A stretch of DNA of 64,000 nt from Actinomadura atramentaria DSM 43919 (lineage in GTDB: Bacteria; Actinomycetota; Actinomycetes; Streptosporangiales; Streptosporangiaceae), in the NCBI RefSeq assembly GCF_000381885.1, contig NZ_KB907215.1, positions 240,454-304,453 of the forward strand, written 5' to 3'. Below are positions 55,399 to 64,000 of this stretch, piece by piece. The notes under the pieces were generated by a model. That model worked only from the letters and a program-made list of their open reading frames with translations, searched no databases and was not told where the DNA came from. Each line of letters starts with the position of its first letter. The first letter of the stretch is position 1. The position numbers were made by a program, and so were the translations under genes.

Positions 55399-55932
55399 TC
55401 AGGCCTTGTTGACCTTGCAGGACGGCGCGGCGTCGAACGCCTTGGTCAGCGCCGGGTCGGCCCGCAGGTCGTCCTTGGGGCCCTTGTAGGCCATCGAGGC
55501 GATCATCGTCTTGGACAGGTCCTTCATGTCCTTCTGCAGCGCGGCCATGCTGGAGGTGTCGGCCTTGGCGAGGTTCGCCTTGGCGTTCTCCACCGACTTG
55601 CGCGTGATCTCCAGCCGGGTCAGCGCCCGGCTCACGGCCTTGTCAGCGCCGTTGACGGGCGGGTTGCCCGCGCTCTTCACGCCGGCCTCCATGTCGCCCA
55701 GCCGCTTGGAGATCTGGTCAAGGAAGGTCTCGATGTTCGCCTTGTACTGCTTCGGGTCCTTCGACTGGGTCGGCAGGGAGAGCTGCTGACCGCCCGCCTT
55801 GTTGACGGACTCGCAGACCTTGGCCGCCCAGGCGACCTCGGGCGGGTCCTTCTTGTCGTCGGACGATCCGCAGCCGGTGATGAAGCTGCCGAGGGCGGCG
55901 GTCAGAACCGCGCCGATGATCAGACGCCGCAT
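55399..55932 (-). CDS. Secreted lipoprotein, helical, unknown function
   Basis: A 177-aa lipoprotein. Signal peptide LIIGAVLTAALGSFITGC with lipobox ITGC (Cys21). The mature chain is mainly helical: ANIETFLDQISKRLGDMEAG, TRLEITRKSVENAKANLAKA, and DMKDLSKTMIASMAYKGPKD, with two cysteines (AAKVCESVN and APSCKVN). No recognised family; helical surface lipoproteins of this type are common in actinomycetes. ATG at 55932 has AAGGAG 9 nt upstream. It follows the lipase gene by 16 nt and is probably in its operon. Confidence 0.82.
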   Translation of the reverse strand: MRRLIIGAVLTAALGSFITGCGSSDDKKDPPEVAWAAKVCESVNKAGGQQLSLPTQSKDPKQYKANIETFLDQISKRLGDMEAGVKSAGNPPVNGADKAVSRALTRLEITRKSVENAKANLAKADTSSMAALQKDMKDLSKTMIASMAYKGPKDDLRADPALTKAFDAAPSCKVNKA

Positions 55933-55948: not shown

Positions 55949-57205
55949 TCAGGCAGAGCAGTTGGAGGAGGGGGCCTCGCCCTTGACCGCGGAGGCCATG
56001 AAGGCGAGCACATCGTCGTTCGCGCGGCCGACGCCGGTGATGTGGTCGACCGGGTAGGTCTTCCACGTCTCCTGGACGCCGAGCTTGCAGTACGCCTGGT
56101 GCAGCGTGTCGTCCTGCGCGAACGGGACGATGTCGTCGTTGGTGCCGTGGTAGTGGAAGACCGGCGCCTTGATCGCGGTGCCGCCGAGCAGGTTCTCCTT
56201 GACGCGCGCGAGCCACGGCGCGTCCAGGAACGGCGACTTGGTGAGGTAGTCGGTCGTCTTGTGCCCGGCGTAGTTGGTCAGCAGCTCCAGCGTGCAGTCG
56301 TTGGCGACCATGTTCGAGAAGACCTGCTGCCCGTCGTCCTTGAAGTAGGACGACAGCTTCAGCTCGGGGTAGGCGTTGTCGAGGCCGACGAGCGCCGTCA
56401 TCAGGAACCCGAAGCCGCGCTTGGAGTTCAGGCCCACCGCGACCTTGGTCAGGTCGGCCGGGACGCCGCCGCCCGCGACGCCGACGAGCTTCAGCTCCGG
56501 CGCGTAGTCCGGCTGCATCTGGCCCGCCCACATCGCGGCGCCGCCGCCCTGCGAGTAGCCGCGGAACAGCACCTTCGCGTCGGCCGACAGCCCGGCCTCG
56601 GAGAACCGCTGCGCCGCCCGGACGCTGTCGATCACCGCGGAGCCCATCGACTTCCCGGCGATGTAGGTCATCTTCGGGTCGGGGTGGTAGCCCTCGTAGT
56701 CGGTCATCGCGACCGCGTAGCCCGCCTTGAGCATGCCGTTCACGGCGGCCTGCTCGTAGAATGCGCCCTCGTCGATGAACTTCGACGGCGCGCAGCGGAA
56801 CGCGGGGCCGCTCGTGCCGGGGCCGAACCCGACGATCGGGAGGGTCTTGGCGTCGCCGGACTTGGGCACCAGGATCGTGCCGGTCACCGCGTCGGGCTTG
56901 CCGAGCGCGTCCTGCGACACGTACATGACCTGCCAGGCGTTGGCGAGGCTGCGCGCCGTCGGCGGGCCCGCCTTGGACGGCCGCCAGCGCAGGATGTCGC
57001 CGGGCTTGGCGTCCGCCGGGATCGAGGCCGGCGGGACGTAGAAGTCGTCGCCCGCCGGGGCGGCGTCCGCGGGCAGGTTCGGCGCGGCGGGGGCCGCGGA
57101 CGCGGACCCGCCGAGCGACGCGCCGACCAGCGCGACGCCGAGCGTCAGCGCCGCGACGGCCGGGGCGGCGGTCCGCGAGCGGCGGGTTCGGAACAGGCCG
57201 AGCAT
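55949..57205 (-). CDS. Secreted lipase (LIP family, alpha/beta hydrolase)
   Basis: A 418-aa secreted lipase. The signal peptide (AAPAVAALTLGVALVGASLG, GSASAAPA) is cleaved near residue 38. The catalytic site is GYSQGGGAAMWAGQMQPDYA with nucleophile Ser, acid Asp in YHGTNDDIVPFAQ, and His in YPVDHITGVG. This matches actinobacterial secretory lipases related to Candida LIP enzymes, which cut extracellular lipids or esters. The ATG at 57205 is 9 nt from AAAGGAG; the ATG at 57214 abuts that site. It begins 14 nt after the FnIII paralogue at 57220. Confidence 0.92.
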   Translation of the reverse strand: MLGLFRTRRSRTAAPAVAALTLGVALVGASLGGSASAAPAAPNLPADAAPAGDDFYVPPASIPADAKPGDILRWRPSKAGPPTARSLANAWQVMYVSQDALGKPDAVTGTILVPKSGDAKTLPIVGFGPGTSGPAFRCAPSKFIDEGAFYEQAAVNGMLKAGYAVAMTDYEGYHPDPKMTYIAGKSMGSAVIDSVRAAQRFSEAGLSADAKVLFRGYSQGGGAAMWAGQMQPDYAPELKLVGVAGGGVPADLTKVAVGLNSKRGFGFLMTALVGLDNAYPELKLSSYFKDDGQQVFSNMVANDCTLELLTNYAGHKTTDYLTKSPFLDAPWLARVKENLLGGTAIKAPVFHYHGTNDDIVPFAQDDTLHQAYCKLGVQETWKTYPVDHITGVGRANDDVLAFMASAVKGEAPSSNCSA

Positions 57206-57219
57206 CGGTCGCATCTCCT

Positions 57220-58659
57220 TTACGCCTTCGCCTGCGGCGTGAGGTTCAGGTCCAGGGTGTTGCCGTCACCGGCGGTGAACGCCGACAGGATCGGGGTGAG
57301 GAGGTTGCAGTCCTGGATCTCCGACAGCTTGTACGTGCCTGAGATCTTGCCGCCCTTGAGCGGGTTGAACGTCCCGTCGGACTCCAGGTGGATCGCGGAG
57401 GGGTCCTTGGTCTGGCACTTGTCGCCGCCGCCGAGGGGGATCACGCCGAAGAGGCTGAAGCTCGGCAGCTTCGTGATGACGTTGACGTCCGCCTTCAGCG
57501 GGCCGTTCAGCGTGCCGGTGACCTTGCCCTGCGGCACGATCTCGATGCCCGCGGTCACGGGGAGGAAGCCGAGAATCGAGAAGTTGCCGCTCGTCGGGTT
57601 CAGCGCGAGGTCGGCGGTGTAGGACTTGGTCTTCAGGTCGAGCGAGGCGTCGATCGCGCCGACCAGGGGGGCGGTGCCGTTCGGGGCCTTCACGAACGTC
57701 GAGCCGGCGAGCGCGAAGCTGTAGTTGACCGGGGTGTCCCCGCCGGGGCTGGAAGGGGTCTTGACTGCCACTGCGGTGGACGCATCCGACAGGTTGCCCG
57801 CCGCGTCCTTCGCCTTCACCGTGAACGTGTACTGGGTGTCGGCCTGGAGGCCGGACACCACGGCGCTCGTCGTGGTCGTGTCCGCGACCTTCTTGCCGCT
57901 GCCGTCGTACACCTCGTAGCCGGTCACGCCGACGTTGTCGGTCGACGCCTCCCAACTGAGCGCGGCGCTGGACGTCGTGGCGGTCGCCGTCACGTTCTGC
58001 GGGATGCTCGGCGCGACGGTGTCCTCATCACCGCCGCCGCCCTCGGTCTTCACGCCGATCGTCGCGAGGACGTTGTCCTGGCCCGGCTCCTGCGTGCATT
58101 CGGACTCGAAGGTGTCGAGCCCGGTGAGCGTGCCGTCCGCGAGCTTCGGCGTCAGCGTGAGCAGGAGGTTGTTCACCACGATCTTCGCGGTGCCCTCCTT
58201 GCTGAACTGGATGGGCGGCGCGGACCCGGTCGCCTTGATGTCGAACCCGCCGCTGGCGGGAAGCGTCGTGCTCTCCAGCGTCACCGGGACCTTGACGGGC
58301 AGGTCGCCCTGCGGCGCCTGGACGACGGCCTCGGCGGACGCCGTGCCCTCGAGCGTCTTCGCGCCCACCTCGCGCAGCCCCTGCGCGGACTTCTCGCCCA
58401 CCGTCGACACCGTGTCGACGACGATCTTGGGGATCGGCGTCTTCGGCGGCACGGTCTCGGGGATGTCCGAGCTCATCGTCACCTGGACCTGCTGCGGTCC
58501 GAGCAGCGGGAACTCGCACTGGTAGTTCAGCTTCAGGGTGTGAACCGAAGCCGCGGCCGGGTTCGCCCCGGCCACGCCGGCGATGCCGGTCACGGCGGCG
58601 GCCACGGAGACCGCGACGCCGGTGTTCCGCAAGCGGGCCGGCAGTGTCTTGGCTTTCAC
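57220..58659 (-). CDS. Secreted DUF6801 protein with one FnIII domain (paralogue 1)
   Basis: A 479-aa secreted protein. A GTG start follows CGAGAGGT. The signal peptide is GVAVSVAAAVTGIAGVAGAN then PAAA. Residues about 40-210 are a DUF6801-type domain (HTLKLNYQCEFPLLGPQQVQ). One fibronectin type III domain follows (SIPQNVTATATTSSAALSWE to GYEVYDGSGKKVADTTTTSA). A conserved C-terminal domain of about 165 residues contains GFLPVTAGIEIVPQGKVTGT and LESDGTFNPLKGGKISGTYK. Two paralogues lie upstream. The FnIII domain here is closest to the second FnIII of the gene at 60327. Likely surface-binding or envelope-associated; no catalytic site seen. Confidence 0.85.
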   Translation of the reverse strand: MKAKTLPARLRNTGVAVSVAAAVTGIAGVAGANPAAASVHTLKLNYQCEFPLLGPQQVQVTMSSDIPETVPPKTPIPKIVVDTVSTVGEKSAQGLREVGAKTLEGTASAEAVVQAPQGDLPVKVPVTLESTTLPASGGFDIKATGSAPPIQFSKEGTAKIVVNNLLLTLTPKLADGTLTGLDTFESECTQEPGQDNVLATIGVKTEGGGGDEDTVAPSIPQNVTATATTSSAALSWEASTDNVGVTGYEVYDGSGKKVADTTTTSAVVSGLQADTQYTFTVKAKDAAGNLSDASTAVAVKTPSSPGGDTPVNYSFALAGSTFVKAPNGTAPLVGAIDASLDLKTKSYTADLALNPTSGNFSILGFLPVTAGIEIVPQGKVTGTLNGPLKADVNVITKLPSFSLFGVIPLGGGDKCQTKDPSAIHLESDGTFNPLKGGKISGTYKLSEIQDCNLLTPILSAFTAGDGNTLDLNLTPQAKA

Positions 58660-58711
58660 TGTCTACCTCTCGTGTCGCCGAGGACGGGGGCGGAGGGGGT
58701 CGGGTAGGGCG

Positions 58712-60166
58712 TCAGTTCTGCACGTCAGGGGTGAGGTTCAGGTCGAGGGTGTTGCCGTCACCGGCGGTGAACGCCGACAGGATCGGCGTGAGGACGCCGC
58801 AGTCCTGGATCTCCGAGAGTTTGTAAGTACCGGTGATCTCGCCGCCCTTGAGCGGGTTGAAAGTTCCGGCGGACTCCAGGTGGATCGCGGAGGGCTCCTT
58901 GGTCTGGCACTTGTCGCCGCCGCCGAGGGGAATTCCGAACAGGTTGAACGTCGACAGCTTCGTGACGACGTCCACGTCCGCCTCAAGCGGACCGTTCAGC
59001 GTCCCGGTGACCTTGTCCTGAGGAACGATCTCGATTCCCGCCGTCACCGGCAGGAACCCGAGGATCGAGAAATTCCCGGTCTTCTTGTTCAGCGACAGGT
59101 CGGCGGTGTACGCCTTGGTCTTCAAGTCGAGGTCGGCGTCGATCGCGCCGGTGAGCGGGGCTTTGCCGTTCGGGGCCTTCACGAACGTCGAACCCGCCAG
59201 TGCGAATCCGTACTTGACGTGGCTTCCGGTGTCGTCGCCCTTGACGGTGACGGGCGCGGCCGTGCCGGGCGCGGAGGCGTTTCCCTCGCCGTCGACGGCG
59301 TTCACCGCGAAGGTGTAGTCACCGGGCAGCAGGTCCGTCAGCGACAGGCTCGTGGTCTTGCCATCGGTCTTGCCGTACGACTTCCCGGTCTGGTCGAACA
59401 CCTCGTACCCCGCGACGCCGGACGGCTCCACGCCGAACGGCGCCTGGTCGGTCGAGGCGGCCCACGCGACTTTCGCCGCGCCATTGGAGTCGGCGGTCGC
59501 GGCCACGTCACCCGGCGCGGTCGGCGGCATGTTGTCCCTGTCGGGTATGCCGGACTCAGCCAGGACATTGCTCTGAGCCGCGTTGGACCGAGTGCAGTCC
59601 ATCTTCAGCGAAATGCCCGACTCATCGGGGATCTCTATGACGTTGCCGCCGGAGTCCCACAGCTCGGGAACAATCTGCATGTCGTCGACGGTGATACGCC
59701 AGGGCTTGTCCCCGCTGATCGAGAACGGCGGGAACTGTCCCTTGCCGTGGAGGACGATCGGCGCGGGGTCATCGGGTACGACGGCCTTCTCCAACGTGAG
59801 GGGCGCCCTGATGCTGAGGTCGCCCTGCTGGACGTGCAATGTCGAGGACAACGACGCCGTCCCGCTCATACTGGCCGCGCCGATGCCGTTGAGCCCGGTC
59901 CACCCGGTCAGAGCCATCTCCGCGTCGACCGTGGCCCTCGGGATCGGATTGCCGGGCGGCACCGGCTCGGGGATGTCCGCGTTGAGGGTGAGCTGCATCA
60001 TCTGGTCCCCGAGCATCGGGAGCGGGCACCGGTAGTCGAGTTTCAGGGAGTGCTCGGTCGCCGCGGCGGAGCCCGCCCCGGCGATGCCGACGACGCCGGC
60101 CGCAGCGGTCACGCAAACCGCGACGCCGAGACCGCGCACGCGGTTCGGCAGTGTCTTGGTTCTCAC
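58712..60166 (-). CDS. Secreted DUF6801 protein with one FnIII domain (paralogue 2)
   Basis: A 484-aa secreted protein with the same plan as its neighbour. GTG at 60166 follows GAGAGGT by 5 nt. The signal peptide is LGVAVCVTAAAGVVGIAGAG. The N-terminal domain (HSLKLDYRCPLPMLGDQMMQ) is the most diverged of the three. The FnIII domain (TAPGDVAATADSNGAAKVAW to GYEVFDQTGKSYGKTDGKTT) matches the first FnIII of the gene at 60327, not that of paralogue 1. The C-terminal domain is nearly identical to the others (GFLPVTAGIEIVPQDKVTGT). 52 nt separate it from paralogue 1. Confidence 0.85.
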   Translation of the reverse strand: MRTKTLPNRVRGLGVAVCVTAAAGVVGIAGAGSAAATEHSLKLDYRCPLPMLGDQMMQLTLNADIPEPVPPGNPIPRATVDAEMALTGWTGLNGIGAASMSGTASLSSTLHVQQGDLSIRAPLTLEKAVVPDDPAPIVLHGKGQFPPFSISGDKPWRITVDDMQIVPELWDSGGNVIEIPDESGISLKMDCTRSNAAQSNVLAESGIPDRDNMPPTAPGDVAATADSNGAAKVAWAASTDQAPFGVEPSGVAGYEVFDQTGKSYGKTDGKTTSLSLTDLLPGDYTFAVNAVDGEGNASAPGTAAPVTVKGDDTGSHVKYGFALAGSTFVKAPNGKAPLTGAIDADLDLKTKAYTADLSLNKKTGNFSILGFLPVTAGIEIVPQDKVTGTLNGPLEADVDVVTKLSTFNLFGIPLGGGDKCQTKEPSAIHLESAGTFNPLKGGEITGTYKLSEIQDCGVLTPILSAFTAGDGNTLDLNLTPDVQN

Positions 60167-60240
60167 GTCAACCTCTCGTGTCACCGAAGGCGGGGCGGAA
60201 TGCGGGGCTCGTGCGGGGCTTTTGCGGGGATTGAGGGGGA

Positions 60241-60290
60241 CCGGCCCCCGCCGTGCGGGACCGCGCTGGGCGCGGGGCGGCGGGGGCCGG
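60241..60290 (-). terminator. Hairpin between paralogues 3 and 2
   Basis: A perfect 13-bp stem (60241-60253 with 60278-60290) and 24-nt loop lie 36 nt after the stop of the gene at 60327 and before the start of the next one. It may end or attenuate the first transcript. Confidence 0.78.
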
Positions 60291-60326
60291 TCGGAAACCG
60301 TGAACCGGTTACCGGAGGGAGGAGCG

Positions 60327-62120
60327 TCAGCTCTTCGCGACCGGGGTCAGGTCCAGGTCGAGGGTGTTGCCGTCACCGGCGGTGAAGATGGACAGGATCG
60401 GCGTCAGGATGTTGCAGTCCTGGATCTCCGACAGCTTGTACGTGCCGGTGATCTTGCCGCCCTTGAGCGGGTTGAACGTCCCGTCGGACTCCAGGTGGAT
60501 CGCGGAGGGGTCCTTGGTCTGGCACTTGTCGCCGCCGCCGATCGGGATGGCCCCGAACAGGTTGAAGACGGACAGCTTGGTGATGACGTTGACGTCGGCC
60601 TTCAGCGGGCCGTTCAGCGTGCCCGTGACCTTGCCCGTCGGGACGATCTCGATGCCCGCGCTCACCGGCAGGAAGCCGAGGATCGCGAAGTTGCCCGTGG
60701 TCTTGTTCAGCGAAAGGTCAGCGGTGTAGGCCTTGGTCTTGAGGTCCAGGTCCGCGTCGATCGCACCGGTCAGCGGGGCCGAGCCGTTGGGGGACTTGAC
60801 GAACGTCGAGCCCTTCAGCGTGAACCCGTACTTGACGTGGTTGTTGTCGCCACCGCCGCCGCCGGCCTGGGTCGTGACCTGGAACGGCGCGCTGGCCTCG
60901 GAGAGGTTGCCCGCGGCGTCCTTGGCCTTGACCGTGAAGGTGTACTGCGTCGAGGCCTTCAGGCCCGAGACGGTGGCGCTGGTGCCGGTCACGTCCGCGA
61001 CCTTGTTGCCAGAGCCGTCGTACACCTCGTAGCCGGTGACGCCGACGTTGTCGGTGGACGCGGTCCACGACAGGGCGACGCTGCTCGAGGTGGCCGTGCC
61101 CGTCACACCCTGCGGGGTGCTCGGCGCGACGGTGTCGTCGTCACCGCCGCCACCCTCGCCCGCAACCGTGACCGCGGCGGCCGTGCCGGCGGCGGAGACG
61201 TTGCCCGCACCGTCGGTCGCCTTCACCGAGAAGGTGTAGTCACCGGCGGCGAGACCGGTCAGCGAGAGGCTGGTGGTCTTGCTGTCGGTCTTGCCCACCG
61301 ACTTGCCGGTCTGGTCGAAGACCTCGTAGCCCGCGACGCCCGACGGGGTCACGCCGTCCGGCGCGGTGTCGGTCGAGGCGCCCCAGGTCACCTTCGCGGC
61401 GCCGGCGGCGTCGGAGGTGGCCTTCACGTCGGCCGGAGCGCTCGGCGCCACGGTGTCCTTGCCACCCGGGTCAGGGTTGCCCTCGCCGATGTCGAACTCG
61501 GCCAGGACGTTGTTCTGGTTCGGGTCCTGCGTGCAGGGGATCTTGTCCATCGACGTGCCCGGCTCCGGCGGGATCTCGACGACGTTGCCGTCGGAGTCGC
61601 GCGGCACGATGTTCAGCGTCAGGTCACCGACGATGATCTTGCCGTGGCCCGCCTTGTTGAAGGTGAGCTGCGGCGCCTCGCCGGTGCCGTGGATGACGAT
61701 CGGCGCCGGGTCGACCGGAACCGGCGTCTTGTCCAGCTTGATCGGCACCTTGACGTTCAGGTTGCCCTGCGGCACCTGGAGCGTGGAGGAGGCGGACGCC
61801 GAGCCCTCGAGGCTGGCGGCGCCGACCATGCTCAGGCCGGACCAGGTGTTCTCGTCGACCGTGGAGATCGCGTCGATCATGATCTTCGGGATCTTCTGAC
61901 CGACGGGGACGGACTTGGGAATGTCCGACTTGATGTCGACGGTGACCTTCTGCTCCCCGATGAGGGGGTACTTGCAGGTGTAGGTCAGACCGTTGAGGGT
62001 CACCGGGTCGGCCGAGGCCGGGCCCGCGGCCACCACACCGGTCAGGGCGGCCACCATGCTGCCGACGGCGGCCGCCGCGAGGGCGGTACGTGCCCTCGGG
62101 GACTTCTTCTTGGCGTTCAC
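60327..62120 (-). CDS. Secreted DUF6801 protein with two FnIII domains (paralogue 3)
   Basis: A 597-aa secreted protein, the longest of the three. The GTG at 62120 is a few nt after AAGAGGT. The signal peptide is TALAAAAVGSMVAALTGVVA then AGPASA. The DUF6801-type domain covers residues about 42-230 (GLTYTCKYPLIGEQKVTVDI). Two FnIII domains follow: the first (APADVKATSDAAGAAKVTWG to GYEVFDQTGKSVGKTDSKTT) resembles paralogue 2, the second (TPQGVTGTATSSSVALSWTA to GYEVYDGSGNKVADVTGTSA) resembles paralogue 1. The shared C-terminal domain ends DGNTLDLDLTPVAKS. It appears to be the parental or fused form of the family. Confidence 0.87.
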   Translation of the reverse strand: MNAKKKSPRARTALAAAAVGSMVAALTGVVAAGPASADPVTLNGLTYTCKYPLIGEQKVTVDIKSDIPKSVPVGQKIPKIMIDAISTVDENTWSGLSMVGAASLEGSASASSTLQVPQGNLNVKVPIKLDKTPVPVDPAPIVIHGTGEAPQLTFNKAGHGKIIVGDLTLNIVPRDSDGNVVEIPPEPGTSMDKIPCTQDPNQNNVLAEFDIGEGNPDPGGKDTVAPSAPADVKATSDAAGAAKVTWGASTDTAPDGVTPSGVAGYEVFDQTGKSVGKTDSKTTSLSLTGLAAGDYTFSVKATDGAGNVSAAGTAAAVTVAGEGGGGDDDTVAPSTPQGVTGTATSSSVALSWTASTDNVGVTGYEVYDGSGNKVADVTGTSATVSGLKASTQYTFTVKAKDAAGNLSEASAPFQVTTQAGGGGGDNNHVKYGFTLKGSTFVKSPNGSAPLTGAIDADLDLKTKAYTADLSLNKTTGNFAILGFLPVSAGIEIVPTGKVTGTLNGPLKADVNVITKLSVFNLFGAIPIGGGDKCQTKDPSAIHLESDGTFNPLKGGKITGTYKLSEIQDCNILTPILSIFTAGDGNTLDLDLTPVAKS

Positions 62121-62849
62121 TCGCTACCTCTTCGCGTTGCGGAGAAACGGCTGTGCATCTCGGCGGCCCCCGGGGGGACGGTTCACCTCCGACGAGGCGG
62201 CCTCGGATGTCGGTGCTGTGAATTGCCGGGCGCTGGATTGCGTCCGAGCTGAAACTCCCGGGGACGGGACCGGCCGTGTCGGCCGGGTCGTGTCCCTGGT
62301 TCGTCGGCGCACCGGTCGGGTTCGCGACCTGCGCCGCCGGATCGTTCGGGGGCTTCGTTGGCGCAAACTATCCGGCGGCGGACGCGGAGTCCACACATTG
62401 TTCCCGCGGCCCAGAAATTTCATAAGTAGTGAGTGACGCACGCCACTGCGACTATCAGAGCGGCGTAACCGCAAGCCTTCCACGGCGTGTGAACGGTCAC
62501 TTCCGGAATGATCAGATTTGGAATACCACCAGCGTTCCTGAATCTTTTTTCATCATCCGATGAGTCATTTTGGGGGCCCGTCGGGGGCCATCGGGGTTTC
62601 TTGTCACCCAGCGCGCGTTCGGCCGCCCGCTTTGTTCACCCGGTGTACGGACCGGGCCCCGCTCGGCGGGTTAGCTTGCACGTGTCCTGGATCACGGGAG
62701 GCACGGCGCGCGGGGGTCCCCGCTCGGCGCGTCCCACCCCCTGCCGCGATCCCTGCACGACGGCCGGCGGAACCGCCGGTCCGGAACTCCGGCGCCGCCC
62801 CGCGCCGCGTCCCGGACCGATCCGGCGGAACCGGCTCTGGAGGTGTCCC
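62121..62849. other. Gene-free region with a less GC-rich patch
   Basis: About 730 bp between divergent genes. The stretch 62400-62590 is visibly AT-richer (AATTTCATAAGTAGTGAG; TTTTTTCATCATCCGATGAG) and probably holds promoters for paralogue 3 and regulator 3. No credible frame was seen. Confidence 0.55.
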
Positions 62850-64000
62850 ATGACCCGAACCCTCGACCCCGTCGCGGCGAGCGCGGCGGGCGCGGCGTCG
62901 TCGCTGCCCCGGCGGCTGGCCCAGCTCATGCGGCCGGAGCTGCCCAGCCTGTGCGACGAGATCGTCGCCGAGATCCGCAAGGCGATCCCGGAGTACGCGC
63001 CGCCCGGCGACGGCCCCTACGACCACGCCTACGACCAGGTGCTGCACGCGAGCGTCCGGCAGAGCCTGACCGCGTTCACCGACCGCGTCGGCGGGACGCC
63101 CGGCGGGGCGGCCTCGCACCGCGAGGCGGCGCGCCGGCTCGGCGAGTACGAGGCGATGGAGGGCCGCAGCCTCGACTCGCTGCAGGCCGCGTACCGGATC
63201 GGCGGCCAGGTCGCGTGGCGGCGCGTCATGAAGGTCGCGCCGCGCTACGACATCTCGTCCACCGTCATGTCACGGCTCGCCGACGCGCTGTTCTCGTTCA
63301 TGGACGAACTCGCCGCGCTGTCGCTGGAGGGCTACCTCGCCGCCCGCGCCCACCCGGTCGCCGCGCTGGACGAGCGCCGCCGCCGGCTGCTGCGCATCCT
63401 GCTCGACGGCGCCGCCGGCCCCGGCCCCGCGCTGGTGGAGATGGCCGAGGCCGCGGGCTGGACCGTACCGGAGCAGGTCACGCTGGTCGCGCTGCGGCCC
63501 GGACCCGGGCAGGTCCGGACGGTGCTGGACGACGACCTGCTCGTCGACCTCGACGACGCCGAGCCGCACCTGCTGCTGCCCGGCCCGCCGACCGAGGAGC
63601 GCGCGGCGATGCTCGCGACGGCCTTCCCCGGCCGCCGGCTCGCGATCGGCACGGCCGTCCCGCTGGCCCGCGCCGCGGACTCGCTGCGCTGGGCGCGGCA
63701 GGCGCTGCACCTGGCCGAGGAGGGTGTGCTGGAGGTGGACGGTCCCATCGTCCGCTGCGACGACCACCTGGTCACGCTGTGGCTGATGGCCGACCCGGCG
63801 CTGCTGGAGCAGCTCGCGCACCAAGTGCTCGGGGTGCTGCCCGCGATGACGCCCGGCCAGCAGGACCGGCTGACCGAGACGCTGCGGACCTGGCTCGTCA
63901 CCCGTGGAACGGCCGCGGAGATCGCGGCGCGGCTGCACATCCACCCGCAGACCGTCCGGTACCGCATGCGCAAGATCGAGCAGACGCTCGGGCCGGAGCT
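62850..64000 (+). CDS. PucR/CdaR-type transcriptional regulator 3 (partial)
   Basis: The first 383 codons are in the window; the gene runs off the right edge. It has the same layout as regulators 1 and 2: helical N-domain (LGEYEAMEGRSLDSLQAAYR, VMSRLADALFSFMDELAALS), a middle alpha/beta domain, and the PucR helix-turn-helix LRTWLVTRGTAAEIAARLHI, HPQTVRYRMRKIEQTLGPEL at the edge. ATG at 62850 has GGAGG 7 nt upstream. It is divergent from paralogue 3 and may regulate the lipase/FnIII island. Confidence 0.9.
   Translation, partial: MTRTLDPVAASAAGAASSLPRRLAQLMRPELPSLCDEIVAEIRKAIPEYAPPGDGPYDHAYDQVLHASVRQSLTAFTDRVGGTPGGAASHREAARRLGEYEAMEGRSLDSLQAAYRIGGQVAWRRVMKVAPRYDISSTVMSRLADALFSFMDELAALSLEGYLAARAHPVAALDERRRRLLRILLDGAAGPGPALVEMAEAAGWTVPEQVTLVALRPGPGQVRTVLDDDLLVDLDDAEPHLLLPGPPTEERAAMLATAFPGRRLAIGTAVPLARAADSLRWARQALHLAEEGVLEVDGPIVRCDDHLVTLWLMADPALLEQLAHQVLGVLPAMTPGQQDRLTETLRTWLVTRGTAAEIAARLHIHPQTVRYRMRKIEQTLGPE

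Follow-up and report, generated by a model that had tools for sequence, protein, structure and literature searches.

Domain-limited gene conversion between paralogous genes has been reported, for example for the bacterial release factors RF1 and RF2 (PMC4530459) and for a PE_PGRS gene pair (PMC1762029). The closest described protein family, DUF6801 (Pfam PF20611), covers the N-terminal domain (N-domain) of the proteins considered here and has no function given, while their C-terminal domain (C-domain) and the gene array that encodes them lie outside its definition. A literature search on DUF6801 returned no match and further searches returned nothing on the family; the secreted array family and its barrel-like C-domain are undescribed, although the exchange process itself is of a known kind. 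The window analysed is a stretch of 64,000 nucleotides of Actinomadura atramentaria DSM 43919 (contig NZ_KB907215.1, positions 240,454 to 304,453), in which three adjacent open reading frames (ORFs) of the minus strand, p3, p2 and p1, are transcribed in that order and encode DUF6801 paralogues with differing sets of fibronectin type III (FnIII) domains. This tandem array was probably reshuffled by recombination between two old neighbouring lineages, the p3 type and a second lineage termed gamma.

Domain architecture of the array

A reading made from the sequence alone had proposed three mosaic DUF6801 paralogues, and Pfam matches, pairwise identities and conflicting domain trees bear this out. 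The coordinates given there contain the three genes, and the similarities it described are correct in direction. The parts of the three genes, with support values of the FnIII tree in brackets, are:

60327-62120, minus strand: p3, first gene of the array, 597 amino acids; signal peptide, DUF6801 (N) domain, two FnIII domains and C-domain
61500-61985, minus strand: p3 DUF6801 match in Pfam, residues 46-207
61176-61457, minus strand: p3 FnIII-1, sister of the p2 FnIII domain (100/100)
60882-61136, minus strand: p3 FnIII-2, sister of the p1 FnIII domain (100/94)
60348-60824, minus strand: p3 C-domain, a predicted beta-barrel without a Pfam family
58712-60184, minus strand: p2, 490 amino acids; a recombinant with a p1-like 5' part, then a p3-like N-domain, an FnIII domain of FnIII-1 type and the C-domain
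59255-59536, minus strand: p2 FnIII, one copy
58733-59206, minus strand: p2 C-domain
57220-58659, minus strand: p1, 479 amino acids; gamma-lineage N-domain with a last FnIII and C-domain apparently of the p3 lineage
58063-58527, minus strand: p1 DUF6801 match, residues 45-199, gamma lineage
about 58024-58050: p1 Gly-rich linker just before the FnIII domain, at which similarity to p3 rises sharply (about 45% before it, about 80% after)
57769-58023, minus strand: p1 FnIII, one copy
57241-57717, minus strand: p1 C-domain

The DUF6801 matches of p1 (E = 1.6e-28, 100.3 bits), p2 (E = 2e-12, 47.9 bits) and p3 (E = 1.4e-26, 94.0 bits) all lie above the gathering cut-off of 26 bits. The fn3 family (PF00041, gathering cut-off 25 bits) is matched once in p1 (48.4 bits) and twice in p3 (65.5 bits); the single copy of p2 scores 17.8 bits, below the cut-off, yet is 73% identical to p3 FnIII-1 against 38% to FnIII-2. 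Similarly, p1 FnIII is 80% identical to p3 FnIII-2 against 57% to FnIII-1. Both pairings, which had been noticed earlier, are recovered as sister groups in the FnIII tree, a tree of few columns. Sec-type signal peptides are read from the sequence in all three proteins, no anchor motif was seen in them, and each ends in a C-domain of about 160-170 residues. The N-domains have diverged, as had been said, to 40-45% identity. The C-domains, described earlier as nearly identical, are indeed very similar, but at 83-85% identity in protein and about 85% in DNA that wording went too far. Between p1 and p3 lies the longest exact DNA match, of 92 nucleotides (57343-57434 = 60450-60541). With a G+C content at third codon positions of 0.96 for p1 and p3 and of 0.89 for p2, conservation of the protein is expected to leave long identical DNA blocks. 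The gene nearest to an undisturbed two-FnIII parent is p3.

The gamma lineage and the origin of p1

Seventeen genomes with informative arrays were chosen and 63 genes parsed, and separate N, FnIII and C trees, the comparison that the sequence-only reading had proposed, were found to disagree with each other. In the N tree p1 falls in a clade of 17 genes, gamma, which contributes one gene per genome in all 17 genomes (100/97; 94/99 for the clade with p1 in a 27-row tree). The gamma gene is the last of its own array in 15 of the 17, and it has no FnIII domain in 13, while those of G026, G039 and G058 carry one each. A secretory lipase (LIP) gene adjoins gamma in 15 of the 16 other genomes, one of them with a weak match, and in the sixteenth the contig ends. 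The species tree, built from rpoC and gyrB, places the window as sister to G010 and G016 (100/100), with G058 next, and among 65 genomes no relative of the window species closer than this pair was found; rpoB was excluded because it occurs in two copies in several genomes. Two rpoB-like genes are present in several genomes of the genus, for example G004, G056, G040 and G037 (L059-L088). G010 and G016 are the two genomes in which gamma is not the last gene of the array; there, some 7 kb separate gamma and the lipase from the FnIII gene. The FnIII gene of these two genomes (L042/L044) is directly followed by lipoprotein and AurF genes.

The C tree groups p1 differently. The C-domains of p1, p2 and p3 stand together (85/86 in the 63-row tree, 95/89 in the 27-row tree) and join the FnIII gene of the sister-species pair (99/99, 27-row tree). 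Forcing the p1 C-domain into the gamma C-domains costs 26.5 log units and is rejected by the approximately unbiased (AU) test (p = 0.001), as is forcing the p1 N-domain to that of p3 (78 log units, p = 4e-6). Next to the pair of p1 FnIII and p3 FnIII-2 stands the fourth, which is the last, FnIII domain of the G010/G016 gene (94/82). On these trees, p1 appears to be a gamma N-domain with a last FnIII domain and C-domain captured from the p3 lineage. The capture would most simply be placed on the branch of the window species itself, because gamma of G010 and G016 keeps no FnIII domain and has a C-domain outside the FnIII-gene group.

The earlier reading had instead derived the array from a two-FnIII ancestor, duplicated twice, with p2 losing the second and p1 the first FnIII domain and with the C-domains kept alike by conversion. 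This history accords with the FnIII pairings and with the resemblance of p2 to a p3-type gene without FnIII-2. It is nevertheless improbable, since the p1 N-domain belongs to a lineage found in every one of the 17 genomes and mostly without FnIII, and its union with the p3 N-domain is rejected by the AU test. The mosaic is real and p2 does lack the second FnIII domain, but p1 is not a trimmed two-FnIII copy; the route proposed was wrong for p1 and incomplete for p2.

p2 as a second recombinant

Over its leader, its signal peptide and about its first 90 residues p2 is of p1 type, which had been missed, and the remainder is p3-like; p2 is a recombinant. The features concerned are:

60102-60199, minus strand: p2 leader and 5' end, with their p1 homologues at 58595-58694
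59905-59930, minus strand: approximate exchange point in the p2 N-domain, after residue 86 (amino acids) or 92 (nucleotides)
60243-60288, minus strand: G+C-rich hairpin between p3 and p2, with exact arms of 10 bases

At nucleotide sites of the N-domain that differ between p1 and p3, p2 is p1-like at 58 of 86 before about residue 90 and at 24 of 99 after it (maximum chi-square 34.8 on 185 sites, with 0 of 5000 permutations as extreme). The amino-acid sites behave alike, being p1-like at 17 of 22 and then at 6 of 32 (maximum chi-square 18.3, 54 sites, p = 0.0002). The leaders and 5' ends of p1 and p2 align with a local score of 45, where the best of 300 shuffles reaches 17, whereas those of p2 and p3 score 7.5 against shuffles of up to 16, no alignment above chance. 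In separate trees of the two parts, p2 groups with p1 on the left (94/89) and with p3 on the right (92/80), and placing the right part with p1 is rejected (p = 0.005).

The hairpin just before p2 is strong (z = -3.3), and the whole genome has only two sites with these exact 10-base arms. In nine other genomes of the genus its core is found immediately before gamma, the exact motif being present in 10 of the 17 with the window included. The hairpin precedes gamma elsewhere and p2 here, and p2 therefore stands at the usual start of gamma. The hairpin may serve as a terminator or as a processing site, separating p3 from the other genes. An Rfam search of 57000-63000 gave no match, a consensus promoter search found none, and terminator-like sites were no more numerous than in shuffles.

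Age of the exchange and divergence of the C-domain

Conversion of the C-terminus had been suggested from identical DNA blocks, with synonymous divergence along the alignment as the check. A runs test on 45 silent polymorphic codons is not significant for p1/p3 (p = 0.09), nor is the test for the other two pairs (p = 0.56 and 0.87). Silent identity among the window C-domains is 0.72-0.81, compared with a saturation expectation of 0.65-0.67 and with 0.68-0.81 between species. Recent gene conversion in the window, as read from identical DNA blocks, is not supported by these two results; homogenisation by recombination stands, because the trees disagree and the C-domain is not slow. The latter follows from 62 within-array gene pairs of the loci examined, pairs which are not independent of one another. 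The median difference between C and N identity (C minus N) is about 1 point (range -17 to +54), so that the two domains diverge alike in most pairs and the C-domain does not inherently evolve more slowly. The three window pairs (+41, +43 and +46) are outliers, at ranks 2-4 of the 62. The extreme is the neighbouring pair of genes 3 and 4 of G049 (L040 5069-8251), whose C-domains share 96% identity (0.97 at silent codons) and whose N-domains share 42%, and where identity steps from about 60% to 95% at the start of the C-domain. A recent tract of depressed silent divergence is found in this pair and not in the window; it is a recent exchange, by the same process as in the window array.

A history without recombination, in which an old duplication order is overlaid by a slow C-domain and fast N-domains, would fit silent sites in the C-domain that are not of recent origin, the long branch of the p2 N-domain and the conserved hydrophobic face of the C-domain. 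In its simple form it is rejected by the 62-pair comparison, and N and C trees that reject one another's groupings in AU tests, the exchange point of p2 and the sharp step in G049 make it very improbable altogether. Different parts of one gene have different nearest relatives, as is characteristic of gene conversion or recombination between tandem paralogues.

A model for the reshuffling

Recombination between the p3-type and gamma lineages probably acted on a secreted modular array built of a variable N-domain, zero to five FnIII spacers and a C-terminal barrel. Homologous recombination between an FnIII-bearing p3-type gene and a gamma gene would have joined the gamma N-domain of p1, at the Gly-rich linker, to a last FnIII and C-domain taken from the p3 lineage. 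In p2, the gamma leader, signal peptide and first ~90 residues would be followed by a p3-like remainder; p2 would come to lie right after the hairpin if gamma and a p3-type gene had undergone unequal crossing-over, and its second FnIII domain would have been lost. Domain homology, conflicting trees, the exchange point of p2 and its place after the hairpin are observed; we infer the order of events, and unequal crossing-over rather than conversion.

Several observations weigh against this model. The AU tests compared groups that had been defined once the trees were known. The gamma C-domains are not one clade in the 63-row tree, where 10 of the 17 stand together with two C-only ORFs, four are basal and three (window, G058 and G037) sit among the C-domains of FnIII genes. 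The silent sites of the window genes show no trace of recent exchange. The tree of the left part of p2 is built on 71 columns; placing this part with p3 is rejected at p = 0.03 only, and a grouping of p2 with the entire gamma clade is neither recovered nor rejected (p = 0.11). The right part of the p2 N-domain is 47% identical to p3, against 73% for FnIII and 85% for the C-domain; a single crossover from p3 is therefore too simple to explain p2, and a fast N-domain, an older lost donor paralogue or later homogenisation of FnIII and C-domain is needed.

The gamma gene of G037 carries a C-domain of FnIII-gene type (97/89, 63-row tree) and that of G058 probably does, a parallel that is not decisive (AU p = 0.24 against gamma). 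It is conceivable, but unlikely, that such cases (the window, G037, probably G058, and the recent C-domain exchange of G049) reflect a standing module-exchange device for the secretome, by which gamma repeatedly swaps C barrel and FnIII domains with FnIII-bearing neighbours. If so, the device would make new combinations of head and barrel on which selection acts: the heads would diverge to suit different targets, and the barrel, a lipid-binding fold not described before, would stay common so as to work with the neighbouring secreted lipase.

Predicted folds and possible function

The predicted fold of the N-domain is closest to PDB 3lso, a putative membrane anchored protein of Corynebacterium diphtheriae, which is not matched in sequence up to E 10 and is not among the Foldseek matches listed; Foldseek returned no match to the N model at E 0.001. 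Sequence searches for solved relatives gave none at E 1 and, at E 10, one chance-like match for the N-domain and none for the C-domain. A relationship between the N- and C-domains was considered and rejected (hhalign probability 1.8%). The C-domain model resembles OmpW, DynF, PsbO and YceI-like proteins in its predicted overall barrel fold, but at 4-11% identity and with no Pfam relation beyond matches to MSP (PsbO) in 2 of 63 members, at E 0.04, the level of chance.

A tentative proposal, for which we claim low confidence, is that p1-p3 are Sec-secreted and unanchored and share as common module the C barrel, which would probably be soluble and hold or dock a hydrophobic ligand, with FnIII domains that set the reach and an N-domain that is the diverging specificity part, and that they work beside the gamma-adjacent lipase; they would then be secreted lipid-handling proteins. 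That the barrel instead spans a membrane as an OmpW-like beta-barrel, with FnIII and N-domain outside, is a doubtful alternative.

Genomic neighbourhood and distribution

Two further genes follow the array:

55949-57214, minus strand: secretory lipase (LIP, PF03583), starting 5 nucleotides after p1
55399-55932, minus strand: small protein bearing a lipoprotein-type signal, encoded next on this strand, its start inferred from sequence

Beyond these lie a gene for an AurF-like protein and then PucR-type regulators. Across the 63 genes the domain order is N (sometimes doubled), zero to five FnIII and C, the exceptions being a few C-only ORFs. A first contig scan with full-length p3 as query detected no relative; p3 is matched somewhere in 59 of 60 genomes of the group, in many via FnIII alone. 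Searching with the C-domain alignment gave 21 loci, 18 in Actinomadura and one each in Streptomyces, Actinocorallia and a gammaproteobacterial metagenome-assembled genome. Phylum-wide the family is rare, with the C-domain in 5, DUF6801 in 7 and both in 4 of 296 genomes. On other contigs of the genome of the window there are a further N-FnIII-C gene (L048 6415-8037) and a pair of C-only ORFs (L049 5646-6812), and contig C2 holds additional weak matches near 307834 and 708275.

Comparison with known systems

The array defines a conserved secreted assembly of DUF6801, FnIII, barrel and secretory lipase, with an unclassified C-domain that could be named and tested. It offers a clean, datable case of module exchange among bacterial tandem paralogues, in which domain trees, the hairpin as position marker and the exchange point agree, and it implies that orthology of such genes should be assigned domain by domain. 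The likeness of the reported RF1/RF2 and PE_PGRS systems to the window array is conversion between paralogues. In contrast to those systems, whole modules have moved in the window array (the last FnIII with the C-domain, and a 5' end), the tandem neighbours differ in domain make-up, and the number of FnIII domains has changed too.
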